From the NCBI GenBank assembly GCA_017554105.1, contig JAFZIY010000014.1:1-64000 (forward strand): DNA of 64,000 bases. The letters are read 5' to 3'. Positions 14,375 through 21,629 of this stretch are shown piece by piece. Positions within the stretch are counted from its first letter, which is position 1, and each line of letters opens with the position of its first letter. Under the pieces are notes generated by a model that saw only the letters and a program-made list of their open reading frames with translations, searched no databases and had not been told where the DNA came from. Both the position numbers and the translations under genes were made by a program. The stretch is from Prevotella sp. Lineage in GTDB: Bacteria > Bacteroidota > Bacteroidia > Bacteroidales > Bacteroidaceae.

Positions 14375-15046
14375 TTATTTCTTGCACCTCTTGTATAAAT
14401 CCTGAAGGGAAGCCCGAGGTGTGCCTGTCTTCACCAAATCATTAAGACAACGCTCAGCCTCTTCCTTTCTGCCGGCCAATATCAATGCGTCAATCTTGTT
14501 AATCTTGTAGTCGCGGTTGTCAGGGTCAATGGCAATGGCCTTGTCGAGGTCATAGACAGCAAGGTCGTACATGCGTCTTTCCTTCTCAATCCCTGCCCTT
14601 GCAGCGTATGCAACAGCACTGTCAGGATATGATTCCACAAGGATGTTGATGCCGTCCATAGCTTCCGTGAAGTGACGGTCTTTCTGGTTGAGCAATGCCA
14701 GGCCCAGTTGTGCCTCGAAGTTGCCAGGCACTACCGTAAGCAGGTTATTGTAGTCGAGCCTTGCAAAGCCAAACCTTCCCATTTTCTCGTTGACATAAGC
14801 ACGGTAGTACAATGCCGCAATGTTGTATGGCTCACGGTTCAGGATATAGTCATACTCATTCTTTGCAAACTCCCACTGCTCGAGCAATATGTTATATGAA
14901 GCCTTCTTGAGTCGCAGGTCAATGCTGTCCGGAGCCATAGAAGACTGCTGGGATATGATTTTAAGGCTGTCACGCAGTTCCTTTTGGGTTTGCGCGACAG
15001 CAATGGTTGTGACTCCTAACAGAAGGACTAAGAGTATCTTACGCAT
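14375..15046 (-). CDS. Exported tetratricopeptide-repeat protein
   Basis: This 223-residue protein has a signal peptide ([19 protein letters not shown]) and about four TPR units (residues ~45-210). Recognisable parts are [29 protein letters not shown] and [34 protein letters not shown]. It is predicted periplasmic and a protein-interaction scaffold; the partner is unknown. It overlaps the leuB stop region by 8 nt, so it is translationally coupled to the leucine operon although no functional tie is evident. Confidence 0.88.
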
Positions 15047-16100
15047 TCTTAATATAATCTACTATCCACTGCCCTACTTCCTTAGTGCCGTATTTCGCAC
15101 CACCTTCAACCTGAATCTCTGGTGTGCGGACATTTGCATCGAGAGAAGCATCAACAGCCTTCCTGATGATTGAGCCTTCTTCCTTAAGGTCGAAATACTC
15201 GAAAAGCATAGCAACAGAAAGAATCTGAGCCAGAGGGTTGGCGATATTCTGTCCCTTTGCCTGAGGCCATGAACCATGAACGGGCTCAAAGACAGGAGTG
15301 CTCTCACCTGTAGAGGCTGATGGCAGCAATCCCATAGAGCCACTGATGCAGGAACCTTCGTCGGTAAGGATGTCGCCAAAGGTGTTCTCAGTTACCATAA
15401 CATCAAAGAACGTAGGCTCTGCAATCATCCTCATTGAGGCGTTGTCAACAAACATATAGTCGGTCTTCACATCAGGATACTGTGGCTCCATCTCCTTTGC
15501 TATCTGTCTCCAGAGCCTGCTGCTTGCCAGCACATTGGCCTTGTCAACCACTGTGAGGTGATGATTACGCTTGCGGGCATACTCAAATCCCACCTTCAGT
15601 ATTCTCTCTATCTCAGGACGAGTGTAATAGTTGGTGTCGTATGCCTTGTCGTTGTCCTGGTATTTCTCTCCGAAATACATGCCACCAGTCAACTCACGGA
15701 TACAGATGAAGTCTGCTCCCTCAACGAGTTCTGCACGAAGAGGTGACTTATGAAGCAAACACTTGAATGTCTGTACAGGACGTATGTTGGCAAAGAGTCC
15801 GAGTTTCTTTCTCATTGCAAGCAGTCCCTGCTCAGGACGAACCTTTGCTGTAGGGTCATTGTCGAACTTCAGGTCACCTACAGCAGCAAAGAGAACGGCA
15901 TCAGCCTCCTTGCAAGTGTTGAACGTCTCTTCAGGGAATGGGTCGCCAACCTTGTCTATGGCATCTGCTCCGCATATTGCCTTCTTATAGCTGACCTCAT
16001 GTCCAAACTTCTCGCAGACGGCATTCATTACTGCCACACCCTGCTCCATAATCTCTGGTCCTATGCCATCACCTGGCAACACCGCAATCTTTAGTTTCAT
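15039..16100 (-). CDS. leuB: 3-isopropylmalate dehydrogenase
   Basis: This 353-residue NAD-dependent beta-decarboxylating dehydrogenase oxidises 3-isopropylmalate, and in this operon probably also 3-methylmalate from the citramalate route. Features are [15 protein letters not shown] at the N-terminus, the [10 protein letters not shown] loop near residue 135, [12 protein letters not shown] near 187 and the metal/substrate block [23 protein letters not shown] near 240. [19 protein letters not shown] near 270 marks the NAD-binding region. The start lies 177 nt after cimA; array B occupies half of that gap. It overlaps the TPR gene by 8 nt. Confidence 0.97.
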
Positions 16101-16277: not shown

Positions 16278-17867
16278 TCATACCACACCTTTCTGTGCAT
16301 TCTCACTCTCCTCGAAGATGTTAAGCATCTTGAAGGTTGCTTTTATAGCGGCCTCTATCTGGTCAGCATCAAGTCCTCTGGTACGTATCATCTTCTCTCC
16401 GTTTCTCCAAGTGATTACAGTCTGTACCAATGCATCGGTCCTTCCGCCTGGTGGGATGGTAACAGAATAGTTCGTAAGTATGGGGAATGTGCGTCCCAGA
16501 TTCTCCTTGTATATCTTGCGCAGGGCCTTCACAAAGGCATCATATTGTCCGTCACCTGTTGAGTTTGCCTCAAACTGCTTGCCGTTGATGTCAACCTTCA
16601 CATTGGCAAGTGGCTTAAGTCCGTATGCTATTGAGGTCATATAGCTCACCAGTTTCACTTTGTCCTCAGGTGCATCGTGCTTTAGTACATCACTGACAAT
16701 GAAAGGAAGGTCGTCCTGAGTCACTATCTCCTTTCGGTCTCCAAGTTCTGTTATTCTCTTAGTAACGCGCTTTGTCTGTTCAGGAGTCAGTTCAAGACCA
16801 AGTTCCTCAAGGTTTTTGGCTATGTTGGCCCTGCCGCTATTCTTTCCAAGAGCATACTCTCTCTTCCTTCCGAAACGCTCTGGAATCAAGGCATTGACAT
16901 AAAGGTTTCCCTTATTGTCACCGTCTGCATGTACTCCGGCAACCTGAGTGAAGACATTCTCACCAATGACGGGCTGGTTAGGAGCAATGGGAATGCCACT
17001 ATAACCCTCAACAAGCTTGGAGATATCGTTAAGTTTATCCTCGTTGATGTTTGTCTTTGCAAGGAACTGGTCCTTGAGAATCACCTGCACACTGCTAAGG
17101 GGAGCATTTCCACAACGTTCACCAAGACCATTCACAGTTACGTGTACTCCCTTGCATCCGCTCAAAACAGCAGCCAGGGTGTTGCTCACCGCCAGGTCAT
17201 AGTCATTGTGTGCATGGAAGTCGAAGTGCACCTCAGGATGTCTTTTCAGCATCTTGCGCATGTACTCTATGACATACAACGGGTTCAGGATGCCCAATGT
17301 GTCTGGCAGCATGAAACGCCTGATGCCTGAATCGACAAGCGAGTCAAGCATCTTATAGACATATTCGGGAGATTCTTTCATTCCATTGCTCCAGTCCTCG
17401 AGATAAAGATTGACCTCCATATCCTTGGACCTGGCATAGTCAACGGTGTTCCTGATGTCTTCGATATGCTCTTCCACAGTCTTGTGAAGTTGTGCGTGGC
17501 AATGCTTCTCACTTCCCTTTGCGAGAAGGTTTATCACTTTTCCGCCACATTCATTTATCCAATCGACTGACAGATTGCCATCAACAAATCCCAGCACCTC
17601 AACCTTCTCAAGAGCATCCATCTGCCTTGCATAGCGGCAAATCATCTTGACAGCGTCTTTCTCACCTTCGGATACTCTGGCAGAGGCAACCTCTATGCGG
17701 TCAACATTGACATCACGGAGTAGCATTCTCGCTATCATGAGTTTCTCATGAGGCAAGAACGACACTCCACTGGTCTGCTCTCCATCACGAAGAGTGCAGT
17801 CCATTATCTCCACAAAGGGATGGATGCGCTTGTAACTTGTGGTGCTTATTTGTTCTCCTTTTCCCAC
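16278..17867 (-). CDS. cimA: (R)-citramalate synthase, Leptospira type
   Basis: This 529-residue HMGL-like enzyme condenses pyruvate and acetyl-CoA to citramalate, the first step of threonine-independent isoleucine synthesis. It resembles the Leptospira CimA type rather than LeuA. Matching blocks are [19 protein letters not shown] near residue 20, [15 protein letters not shown] near 54, [20 protein letters not shown] near 152, [20 protein letters not shown] near 215 and [13 protein letters not shown] near 315. The C-terminal regulatory domain ([17 protein letters not shown]) is present, so isoleucine feedback is likely. The start overlaps the leuD end by 22 nt. LeuCD and LeuB can carry citramalate on to 2-ketobutyrate. 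Confidence 0.88.
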
Positions 17868-18442
17868 GTTTCTATTTTATCCTTATTCTCCAAAAGATAG
17901 TCTATGTCGTCAAGACCATTCATCAGGCAATGTTTCTTGTAGCCATTTATGTCAAAATGCTCCGACTTTCCTGTCGCCTTGTTGGTTACTGTCTGGTTTG
18001 GCAGGTCAACCTCGACCTCCGTCTTGGGGTCGTTCTCAATGCTCTTGAACAGTTCAGATAGGAACTCATCGCTCACAACAACAGGAAGAACAAAGTTGTT
18101 CAGTTCGTTGTTCTTGTGGATATCGGCAAAGAAACTACTGATAACAACGCGGAAACCATATCCTGCAATAGCCCATGCGGCATGTTCTCTACTTGAACCG
18201 TTACCAAAATTCTTGCCTGCTACGAGTATGCAACCAGAATACTTGGGGTCGTTAAGAACAAACTTCTCATTGAGACTTCCATCAGGATTGTATCTCCAGT
18301 CACGGAAAAGATTGTCACCAAAGAACTTCTCCTCACGTGTGGTTGACTTGAGGAAGCGAGCTGGAATTATCTGGTCTGTGTCCACATTCTCAAGAGGGAG
18401 AGGAACACAAGTGCTCTTTATAATGTCAAATTTCTGTTTCAT
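17846..18442 (-). CDS. leuD: 3-isopropylmalate dehydratase small subunit
   Basis: This 198-residue aconitase swivel-domain protein pairs with LeuC to isomerise 2- to 3-isopropylmalate (and citramalate to 3-methylmalate). It shows [20 protein letters not shown] near residue 14, [21 protein letters not shown] near 72 and [17 protein letters not shown] near 98. The gap from leuC is 22 nt, and the 3' end overlaps cimA by 22 nt, which suggests translational coupling. Confidence 0.97.
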
Positions 18443-18464: not shown

Positions 18465-19856
18465 TTAAACGGTTCTTGGGTCTGTTATCTTTCCGGTGAT
18501 GGCAGATGCTGCTGCAACAAGTGGTGATGCAAGAATGGTGCGGGCACCAGGACCTTGTCTTCCCTCGAAGTTGCGGTTGCTTGTAGATACACAATACTTT
18601 CCTGAAGGCACTTTGTCATCATTCATAGCCAGACATGCTGAGCATCCTGGTTGGCGTATCTCAAAGCCTGCTTCTTTTAGAATAGCATCAATACCCTCAT
18701 CTTCTATTTGCTTCATTACAGCCCAACTGCCTGGTACAAGCCATGCAATGACATCTTCATTCTTTTTCTTGCCTTTTACTATTGAGGCAAAAGCACGGAA
18801 ATCCTCAATGCGTCCATTAGTGCAGGCACCAAGGAAAACATAGTCTATTGGATGTCCTTCAAGCTTCTCACCAGGAGCAAATCCCATATAGTTAAGTGAC
18901 TTAAGGAACCCTGCCTTTCCTGCTTCAGGGATAGTATCAAGTGAAGGAACACTCTCGTTTATGCCTATTCCCATTCCTGGATTTGTACCGTATGTGATAC
19001 GAGGCTCAATATCCTTTGCGTCAAAGACAAGTTCCTTGTCGAATACAGCATCTTCTCCGCTATACAGGGTCTTCCAATAGGCAACGGCTTTGTCCCACTC
19101 TTCACCCTTAGGAGCATATTCCTTACCCTTTATATACTCAAATGTTGTCTCGTCAGGTGCAACAAAACCACCACGAGCACCCATCTCTATAGACAGGTTG
19201 CAGAGCGTCAGGCGGCCTTCCATAGACATGTCCTTGACCACATCTCCAGCATATTCCACGAAGTATCCTGTTGCTCCGCTGGTTGTAAGTTTTGACATCA
19301 GATACAGTGCAACATCCTTTGCTACGACTCCCTTGCCCAATTTGCCATTGATGCTGATGCGCATTGACTTTGGCTTCTGTTGAAGAATACACTGTGAGGC
19401 CATAACCATTTCCACCTCACTTGTACCAATTCCAAATGCCACAGAACCAACAGCACCATGTGTACTAGTGTGTGAGTCACCGCAAACAATGGTCATTCCA
19501 GGAAGAGACAGACCTTTCTCTGGTCCCACCACGTGAATTATACCATTGCTTTTGTCGAGCATTCCATAATGAGTAAGACCAAATTCTTTTGTATTCTTTG
19601 CGAGTGCGTCAACCTGTTTCTTGCTGACGGGGTCTTCAATAGGCTTGTCCTGGTCGTGTGTGGGAGTGTTGTGATCAGGCATACAGAATATCTGGTCAGG
19701 ACGGAAACACTTCAATCCCCTTGCGCGCAAGCCGTCAAAAGCCTGAGGACTTGTCACCTCATGACAGTAAAGACGGTCAATATACAACTGAGTGGGACCA
19801 TCTTCAACTATCTGAACTACGTGTTTATCCCATATCTTATCAAAAAGAGTATTCAT
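18465..19856 (-). CDS. leuC: 3-isopropylmalate dehydratase large subunit
   Basis: This 463-residue catalytic subunit binds a [4Fe-4S] cluster. The cluster cysteines are visible in [14 protein letters not shown] near residue 344 and [12 protein letters not shown] near 405. The substrate and NTR motifs include [31 protein letters not shown] near 120. The length is usual for the bacterial LeuC type. It lies 36 nt after leuA and 22 nt before leuD. With LeuD it serves both the leucine and the citramalate routes. Confidence 0.97.
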
Positions 19857-19892: not shown

Positions 19893-21395
19893 TTAGTTCC
19901 TGAACTTGTTAATACAATCGATATATGCCTCTACGGATGCTGTCACTATGTCAGTATTGGCACCGAATCCATAATAGAGACTACCGTTGTATTCCACTTG
20001 CATGTGAACCTTACCCATATCGTCTGAACCTTTGGAGATGGCCTGAATGGTAAACTCCTTAAGTGTCATCTGCTTCATAATGATCTTCTTCAGAGCCTTT
20101 ATTGCTGCATCAACAGGACCATTACCCGTTGCTGCTGCCTCAAACTTCTGACCGGAGATGTCAAGACCAATGCTGGCAACACTCTTGACGCCCATTCCAG
20201 TAGTAACCTGTAAGAAGTCGAGTTTGACACCGTGGTTCTCACTTGAATCGGCACCGGCCAATGTTAGGATATCGTCATCATTTACTTCCTTCTTGCGGTC
20301 TGCAAGGGCAAGGAACTTCTGATACAAAGTATCGAGTTTCTTCTCATTGTCGATATCAACGCCAAGTACCTCAAGACGATACTTCAGTGCTGCCCTACCC
20401 GAGCGTGCAGTCAATACAATAGAGTTGTCATCAAGTCCGACATCCTTTGGATTCATTATCTCGTATGTCTGAACGTTCTTGAGGACTCCGTCCTGATGAA
20501 TACCACTTGAATGTGCGAATGCGTTTCTTCCCACAATTGCCTTGTTAGGTTGTACAGGCATGTTCATCAGAGAACTAACCATTCGGCTTGTAGGATAAAT
20601 CTTTGTGGTGTTGATATTCGTGTCGATACCTATTGTCTTATGACACTTCAGAATCATTGAAATCTCTTCAAGGGATGTGTTACCAGCACGCTCACCAATA
20701 CCGTTGATAGTAACCTCTGCCTGGCGTGCACCATTGAGTATTCCACTCATTGTATTAGCAGTAGCCATTCCAAGGTCGTTATGGCAATGGGTAGAAAGAA
20801 TAGCCTTGCCTGAGGAGAGTCCGTCAACATGTTCCATGAGATACTTTATCTTCTCTCCATATTCCTGTGGCAGGCAATATCCTGTTGTGTCTGGAATATT
20901 GCATACAGTTGCACCGGCCTTCACTACAGCCTCAATGACACGTGCAAGATATTCATTGTCTGTCCTACCGGCATCCTCTGCATAGAACTCAACATCTTCA
21001 ACAAACTTCTTTGCATACTTCACTGCAGCCACAGCACGTTCGATGATTTCCTCACGGTTGGAGTTGAACTTGTACTTGATGTGTGAGTCGCTTGTTCCAA
21101 TACCGGTGTGGATTCTCTTGCGCTTAGCATATTCCAATGACTCTACAGCAACGTCAATATCCTTCTGCACGGCTCTGGTTAGCGCACAGATTGTAGGCCA
21201 TGTAACAGCCTTTGATATTTCTATAACCGAATTGAAGTCACCAGGACTTGAAATAGGGAATCCTGCCTCAATAACATCGACTCCAAGTTGTTCCAGTTGT
21301 TTAGCCACCTGTATTTTCTCCACGGTGTTCAACTGGCATCCTGGTACTTGTTCGCCATCTCTCAGTGTAGTGTCAAAGATAAATAATCTGTCCAT
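19893..21395 (-). CDS. leuA: 2-isopropylmalate synthase
   Basis: This 500-residue protein catalyses the first committed step of leucine synthesis (2-ketoisovalerate + acetyl-CoA). Features are [16 protein letters not shown] at the N-terminus with the metal/catalytic Arg-Asp, [44 protein letters not shown] near 200 (seen in parts) and [13 protein letters not shown] near 290. A C-terminal LeuA dimer/regulatory domain occupies ~370-500 and is the expected leucine feedback site. It is the first structural gene of the operon. The 200-nt leader upstream holds a promoter, a Leu/Ile-rich leader peptide and an attenuator. Confidence 0.97.
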
Positions 21396-21420: not shown

Positions 21421-21460
21421 AAAAAAGACCTTCACACCAAGGAAGTGGAAAGGTCTTTTC
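21421..21460 (-). terminator. Attenuator terminator of the leu operon
   Basis: On the minus strand a 10-bp stem AAAAGACCTT/AAGGTCTTTT (21459-21450 with 21432-21423), extended by CAC/GTG, is followed by TTTTTT. It ends 26 nt before leuA. Its 5' arm and loop can instead pair with the end of the leader-peptide gene: GGAAGTG with CACTTCC, then AAGGT with ACCTT, forming an antiterminator. Confidence 0.88.
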
Positions 21461-21504
21461 TTAAATATACTCTATATTATTTATGTATTTGCTTTGTACA
21501 TACC

Positions 21505-21573
21505 TTAACACTTCCGACTACAGCCCTGAAGTCGAAGAATATTAATAAGGTATAGGTTTGTAATAACTGACAT
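21505..21573 (-). CDS. Leu/Ile-rich leader peptide of the leu operon
   Basis: A 22-codon frame lies between the leu promoter and the attenuator. It begins M-S-V-I-T-N-L-Y-L-I-N-I-L-R-L; four Leu codons (one CTA, three CTT), three Ile and one Val fall among codons 3-15. The stop codon TAA (21507-21505) lies inside the antiterminator 5' strand. A ribosome finishing the peptide would mask that strand and favour termination; stalling at Leu or Ile codons would free it. This is the classical transcription-attenuation layout. It fits an operon carrying both LeuA and CimA. Confidence 0.85.
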   Translation of the reverse strand: MSVITNLYLINILRLQGCSRKC

Positions 21574-21597
21574 ATTGATTATTTTCTAAATCGCGTG

Positions 21598-21629
21598 CAA
21601 AGTTATACATAATAATTTAATTGTGCAAA
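21598..21629 (-). promoter_or_regulatory. Promoter of the leu/cim operon (TTTG-N20-TAACTTTG)
   Basis: On the minus strand TTTG (21629-21626) and TAACTTTG (21605-21598) are 20 nt apart. The predicted start point lies ~15-20 nt before the leader peptide ATG. Confidence 0.8.

Follow-up and report, generated by a model that had tools for sequence, protein, structure and literature searches.

The leuL attenuator of Escherichia coli and Salmonella reportedly senses leucine only, through a leader peptide with rare CUA codons and alternative antiterminator and terminator structures before leuA; rare Leu codons are said to tune the Salmonella leader. The enterobacterial ilvGMEDA and ilvBN operons are likewise said to carry multivalent attenuators.

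Other branched-chain leaders have been described. In Corynebacterium, a multivalent branched-chain leader acts on the ilvBNC operon (PMC11857589, PMC10272879). In Staphylococcus aureus (Firmicutes), a leucine-rich attenuator peptide is combined with control by isoleucine via CodY (PMC5794164). The actinobacterial LEU element combines a Leu-run leader before leuA with a pseudoknot and base-pairs with the Shine-Dalgarno box of leuA (PMC1262725). Among Bacteroidota, leader-peptide attenuation has been suspected before amino-acid operons of Flavobacterium psychrophilum (PMC9723704), and in Bacteroides thetaiotaomicron, sORFs lying within long 5′ UTRs have been compared to attenuators (PMC7366714); the parts of these two papers available to us name no leu leader, Leu/Ile codons or link to cimA.

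Here we analyse the region upstream of leuA in a 64 000-nucleotide stretch of Prevotella sp. DNA (the whole stretch is called the window). The attenuation mechanism deduced for it is the classic trp/leu type. It resembles leuL in its Leu codon leader, its rare CUA codons and its alternative antiterminator and terminator before leuA, but differs from that reportedly leucine-only system in combining Leu with Ile codons, in its Bacteroidota promoter and in having cimA in the operon. Like the ilvGMEDA, ilvBN and ilvBNC attenuators, it appears to serve several branched-chain amino acids with a single leader, but Val is almost absent from it and the operon consists of leu genes plus cimA. It shares with the S. 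aureus peptide the placing of branched-chain genes under leader peptide control, but has both Leu and Ile codons where S. aureus has a leucine-rich peptide and isoleucine acts through CodY. With the LEU element it has in common a Leu-run leader before leuA, but it possesses an intrinsic terminator instead of a pseudoknot and Shine-Dalgarno pairing. Our search of the open literature found no published leu leader from Bacteroidota; Lopatovskaya et al. (2010) may contain predictions. Relative to the literature searched, the new elements are a leu attenuator widespread in Bacteroidales, its use of Leu and Ile but not of Val codons, and its link to the presence of cimA in the operon.

The operon

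The leader is followed by five genes:

19893..21395, minus strand: leuA, 2-isopropylmalate synthase (NF002086, 728.6 bits, exceeding the cut-off of 532)
18465..19856, minus strand: leuC (TIGR00170, 639.7 bits, over the cut-off)
17846..18442, minus strand: leuD (TIGR00171, 184.3 bits, over the cut-off)
16278..17867, minus strand: cimA-like citramalate synthase gene, Leptospira type (NF042433, 614.6 bits, best match, below the cut-off of 950)
15039..16100, minus strand: leuB (TIGR00169, 429.5 bits, over the cut-off)

By these matches, the operon makes the amino acids that the leader is proposed to sense, with leuA, leuC, leuD and leuB recognized over their cut-offs and the cimA-like gene by its best match. 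Compared with solved structures, the cimA-like product scored 384.8 bits with the Leptospira citramalate synthase (3ble) and 163.9 bits with the best 2-isopropylmalate synthase; by sequence, the identification of the fourth gene as cimA is well supported, though short of proof. In the own genome no IlvA (threonine ammonia-lyase) was found above the TIGR01127 cut-off, and CimA may therefore be its route to isoleucine. A gene for a TPR-repeat protein (14375-15046, minus strand) shares 8 bases with the end of leuB; in several relatives, leuB is likewise followed by a homologue.

Architecture of the leader

The following parts were recognized upstream of leuA:

21598..21629, minus strand: leu operon promoter, Bacteroidota type, TTTG-N20-TAACTTTG (TTTG at 21629-21626, TAACTTTG at 21605-21598)
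21505..21573, minus strand: leader peptide ORF, MSVITNLYLINILRLQGCSRKC, 22 codons plus the stop codon TAA (sequence read)
within 21505..21573, minus strand: sensor codons, Leu at 7, 9, 13 and 15, Ile at 4, 10 and 12, Val at 3 (sequence read)
21530..21536, minus strand: segment 1, UUCGACU, within leader codons 13-15 (RNA fold)
21513..21519, minus strand: 3′ side of hairpin 1:2, AGUCGGA (RNA fold)
21502..21515, minus strand: segment 2, the 5′ side of the antiterminator, GGAAGTGTTAAGGT, running across the leader stop codon (fold, alignment, motif search)
21441..21454, minus strand: segment 3, ACCTTTCCACTTCC, common to antiterminator and terminator (fold, alignment, duplex energies)
21423..21459, minus strand: terminator hairpin 3:4 (fold; compensated pairs in relatives)
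21421..21426, minus strand: T-run of the terminator, partly paired with an A-run at the hairpin foot (sequence read)

A complete leu/ile attenuator had been proposed here in the initial annotation. Its promoter (21629-21598) and its 22-codon leader (21573-21505), with four Leu, three Ile and one Val codons among codons 3-15, match the sequence exactly. The terminator that it placed at 21459-21423 is present with its six-T run (21426-21421) between the leader and the first gene; the computed fold of this 44-nt piece has −17.0 kcal/mol, and four of the six Ts are paired inside the hairpin. As to the antiterminator, the letters had been read correctly and segment 3 lies at 21454-21441, but segment 2 had been placed two bases off, at 21517-21504 instead of 21515-21502. 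Segments 2 and 3 pair at 12 of 14 positions (counted by eye in the window). The antiterminator and the terminator exclude each other, and the 5′ side of the former is within reach of a ribosome on the leader. Thermodynamic folding, which had been suggested as a check, gave −38.9 kcal/mol for the 176-nt leader (z = −3.13), a value equalled by 1 of 200 shuffles.

By itself, the composition of the leader is just moderately unusual within the window: among 435 ATG ORFs of 18-30 codons, the leader itself included, 19 are at least as rich in Leu+Ile as the leader, and 4 contain six Leu/Ile codons within a stretch of nine. It is the conservation in relatives, described below, that makes the attenuator secure.

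Modelling of the switch

We consider it very probable, from the sequence and from modelling, that this leader is a ribosome-mediated attenuator of the leuA-leuC-leuD-cimA-leuB operon which would answer to a shortage of leucine or of isoleucine (OR logic). We infer where transcription starts, that the leader is translated, that transcription stops prematurely and that starvation relieves this stop, as follows. RNA polymerase would start a few bases past 21598, and a ribosome would translate the 22-codon leader behind it. When Leu and Ile are plentiful, the ribosome would reach about codon 17 or beyond and mask segment 2; segment 3 would then pair with segment 4 and transcription would end near 21421. 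With too little charged tRNA-Leu or tRNA-Ile, the ribosome would stall at a Leu or Ile codon ahead of segment 2, which could then pair with the emerging segment 3, so that the terminator would be held off and the operon read.

This scheme was examined with a masking model on nascent RNA, in which the ribosome footprint is assumed and which has no energy or speed terms. For 3′ ends at 21442-21430, the probability of the antiterminator pairing 2:3 was 0.84-1.00 with the A-site at codon 12 or 15 and 0.00 when the ribosome stood at codon 18 or on the stop codon. A scan along the codons gave 1.00 at codons 10-15, 0.59 at codon 16 and 0 from codon 17, and footprints between +10 and +16 put the switch point at codons 16-18. 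Stalling at codon 7 still allows 2:3 to form (0.81-0.98, 3′ end at 21442-21430); in the model, therefore, the Leu and Ile codons from position 7 onwards can be effective. Without a ribosome, hairpin 1:2 had a probability of 0.95-0.96 until 21442 and of 0.91 again at 21430, from where 1:2 and the terminator win; with the 3′ end at 21439-21433, however, 2:3 was partly favoured (0.66-0.89), which makes hairpin 1:2 a leaky guard in the model. Once the 3′ end is at 21424 or beyond and segment 4 is out, the RNA folds into the terminator at equilibrium, whichever of the modelled positions the ribosome takes. Antitermination would therefore need co-transcriptional kinetics; a kinetic decision is usual for trp/leu-type attenuators.

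Conservation upstream of leuA in Bacteroidales

We compared 241 upstream regions: those of 80 named leuA loci (the nearest being that of Prevotella sp. UBA4330, LeuA identity 96%), those of 60 + 40 + 40 + 20 further Bacteroidaceae/Bacteroidales loci, and that of the window. The strict calling rule (rule 2) ignores amino-acid content. It needs a terminator hairpin of at least 7 pairs with a T-run at most 200 nt from leuA, an ATG ORF of 14-40 codons, and a duplex of segments 2 and 3 no weaker than −9 kcal/mol. An attenuator was called in 142 of the 241 regions (51 of the 81 named-plus-window regions), and 141 of the 142 leader sequences called are distinct. The rule misses leaders that are visible by eye (L008, L010, L014, L146, L162, L186 and others) and makes a few probable false calls among loci with cimA in the operon (L147, L156, L181, L244). 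By eye, more of the named loci carry an attenuator than the rule calls, 15 of the 80 being without one. The comparison across relatives that the initial annotation had recommended came out in its favour in most close relatives: in many Bacteroidales, though not in all, leuA is preceded by such a leader with Leu/Ile codons and by the two alternative stems. Among 60 genomes searched within the genus, 8 contain an exact motif for segments 2 and 3, each time directly ahead of leuA, with a single occurrence in the own genome; the other 52 gave no match, which we count against the preferred explanation. In some near-complete genomes of this genus (3 of 11 in one set), leuA gave no match at the threshold applied; these genomes may belong to leucine auxotrophs.

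The pairings were analysed in the same relatives. Terminator pairs 6-9 (counted outward) show changes on both sides among the 59 pattern-fitting terminators of the 142 (pair 7, for example, is G-C in 41 and A-T in 13), in counts made without a shuffled control and with kinship not removed. A counterpart of hairpin 1:2 is present in 38 leaders with landmarks, with at least 7 pairs in each and a mean of −7.6 kcal/mol (range −10.6 to −4.7). In 136 representatives, the own segment 2:3 duplex has −13.0 kcal/mol versus −11.3 for swapped and −9.0 for shuffled partners, and it beats the median swap in 93 of the 136, a result favoured by the selection of leaders on their own duplex energy. An alignment of 30 rows, out of 49 picked beforehand, displays the layout; its rows were filtered for AAGTG and CACTT, and the invariance of GGAAGTG:CACTT in it is therefore uninformative on covariation.

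The recurrence of an intrinsic terminator with T-run and of a complementary antiterminator (the calling rule requires both) argues against control mainly by reinitiation or Rho-dependent polarity. Sequence as such is compatible with Rho, and at least one relative (L166) has a leader and a hairpin without a proper T-run; all the same, we give this alternative hardly any chance.

The promoter signal is also conserved. TTTG-N19-21-TAnnTTTG occurs 13 times in the window versus 0.63 expected, and these 13 promoter-like sites constitute a ready promoter map of the window. Among the 138 called leaders with sufficient upstream sequence, 125 have TAnnTTTG at most 70 nt before the leader ATG, as against 4 of 102 control pieces and 8% of shuffles; the −7 element of the leader promoter is thus conserved in relatives. 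In the own genome, no leader with terminator was called before hisG (L280) or ilvD (L281), and promoter-like TAnnTTTG stands near the start codons of both genes. A Leu/Val-containing ORF before ilvD was rejected as an attenuator leader, as it has no terminator and sits before a TAACTTTG-like promoter.

Translation of the leader and codon use

A short ORF rich in codons for the regulated amino acids is found in the window and in relatives. In 60 of 65 leaders, the distance from its ATG to a conserved CGA codon is divisible by three. By eye, alignment gaps upstream of the CGA codon come in threes, and a one-base difference downstream of it shifts the stop in the window, L001, L069 and L071. Through a single-base difference in the loop of hairpin 1:2, the leader stop of the window (21507-21505) and of L001 comes to lie inside segment 2; in 28 of the 44 leaders measured, the stop is 21 bases past the start of GGAAGTG.

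The rare Leu codon CTA accounts for 31% of leader Leu codons but for 3.2% in the operon genes (88 loci): 130 were seen versus 12.3 expected, an excess of about tenfold (the largest value in 2000 simulations was 24), and CTA is enriched in the leader in 72 of the 88 loci. Leader Ile codons are mostly ATT (73%), whereas the operon genes of these loci prefer ATC (45%). The kept frame, the CTA enrichment and the −7 element of the promoter support, at the level of sequence, a ribosome-mediated sensing mechanism.

These observations bear on another explanation, namely that the terminator is constitutive or under the control of a regulator, for example a protein or a small RNA, and that the ORF is untranslated. 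Such a leader would agree with the fact that the full-length leader folds into the terminator at equilibrium. The kept frame, the CTA enrichment and a Leu/Ile content that tracks gene content (see below) would nevertheless be hard to explain without translation. Moreover, no family of the Rfam 15 covariance models reached its gathering score in the leader, the best sub-threshold match being PyrR (27.9 of 54 bits); the covariance search places the leader neither with the T-boxes nor in any other curated RNA family. We regard this explanation as very improbable.

Isoleucine codons and the position of cimA

If the leader senses isoleucine on behalf of cimA, attenuators of operons that lack cimA are expected to have few or no Ile codons. 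The genes of each operon were identified with tblastn, the proteins encoded in the window serving as queries. Under rule 2, cimA was in the operon at 101 loci (68 with attenuator), out of it at 55 (20 with attenuator) and in an unknown position at 4; the 80 named loci, in which the state of cimA was not read, and L169, L193, L227 and L251, which lie at contig ends, were left out of these counts. L154 and L167 were classed as cimA-out by a 1200-nt gap rule though cimA is present farther down, and neither has a called attenuator.

At least three Ile codons were found in 62 of the 69 attenuators with cimA in the operon (window included) versus 0 of the 20 with cimA out (Fisher, P = 2e-14, kinship ignored); for at least two Ile codons the numbers were 67 of 69 versus 5 of 20. 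An earlier calling rule, rule 1, gave much the same picture for at least two Ile codons (72 of 72, window included, versus 6 of 20). It took in two doubtful leaders, L197 and L277; rule 2 drops L197 by its duplex energy and keeps L277 as one cimA-out row. At residues 2-18, Ile makes up 25.1% in cimA-in versus 4.1% in cimA-out leaders, Leu 23.3% versus 34.1% and Val 1.2% versus 0.9%. Leu and Ile codons are thus kept in the sensor part and Val codons are not.

One genus, g119, contributes 13 of the 20 cimA-out leaders. Its leader reads LLNLLGLRLT (cimA elsewhere) versus IIGIILSLRLS in the relative g123 (cimA in the operon). Family f22 offers a similar comparison, MNTTLLSLSLTSGLTLSK in L190 (cimA out) versus MTITMNSIILSLSIIGLTLSK in L287 (cimA in), and a further cimA-out leader, MQNLSLNTNLSLLSLLLGLLLER, in L284. 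On the LeuA tree there are 5 independent contrasts, of which on average 4.2 are as expected and 0 opposite (sign test, median P = 0.125); the doubtful leader L277 stands for one of the cimA-out lineages. The association between Ile codons and cimA, strong in count, is modest in independent events, and with about five contrasts it is suggestive only. The joint sensing of leucine and isoleucine put forward in the initial annotation is borne out to that extent, by comparison among relatives.

The alternative to be weighed here is a leucine-only attenuator, in which the Ile codons are hydrophobic or AT-rich filler. At least one Leu codon is present in all 88 called leaders of known operon state, the rare CTA signature is carried by Leu, and the E. 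coli leu leader is reportedly leucine-only. Filler of this kind, however, does not account for the difference in Ile between cimA-in and cimA-out leaders while Val stays near 1% in both, nor for the scarcity or lack of Ile in separate cimA-out lineages (L190, L284, genus g119, genus g129). We consider it unlikely, and sensing of both amino acids remains the preferred reading.

Several loci depart from the general layout. No attenuator was called in 33 of the 101 cimA-in operons; in some it is visible below the energy cut and in others there is none. Nor was one called before leuACDB without cimA in L218-L222 and L230 (g129), L170 and L171 (g122), and L285, L286, L288 and L291 (f22); kin of these loci in g129 and f22 keep a Leu-rich attenuator. 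The g119 loci L163-L165 and L200-L211 have leuA-leuC-leuD with no leuB match in the stretch examined, and their cimA is kilobases off, inverted, or not found in that stretch. At 7 loci examined, no leader with terminator was called for the separate cimA of this genus. L166, a cimA-out locus uncounted by either rule, has the leader-like ORF MTYTSYFRLCNVLSLRTLGTRE with four Leu and no Ile codons, and a strong hairpin without T-run upstream of leuA. The presence of IlvA was considered as a cause of cimA position in 28 genomes (14 cimA-out and 12 cimA-in genomes, besides the own genome and G213, the operon of which was left unread) and was rejected for want of a clean link: IlvA was over the cut-off in 3 of the 14 cimA-out and 5 of the 12 cimA-in genomes and does not track the position of cimA.

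DISCUSSION

We think it probable, though with distinctly more reserve than for the attenuator itself, that the Bacteroidales attenuator is a two-input OR gate for two pathways with LeuCD and LeuB in common, whose codon sensor would have been retuned by evolution along with operon content. Where cimA is out, Ile codons would have been lost or Leu taken on instead, while the RNA switch was kept, and the leader codons would then be a record of the pathways served.

If this is true, the presence or absence of cimA in the operon provides natural experiments, with sensor codons that differ in the way expected from theory, and dual-input attenuation is directly testable by codon swaps. The leader may also let one infer which amino acids an operon answers to, and a leucine/isoleucine-responsive part would be on offer for gut Bacteroidales. 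For the order as a whole, the gain would be a well-defined and widespread amino-acid attenuator.
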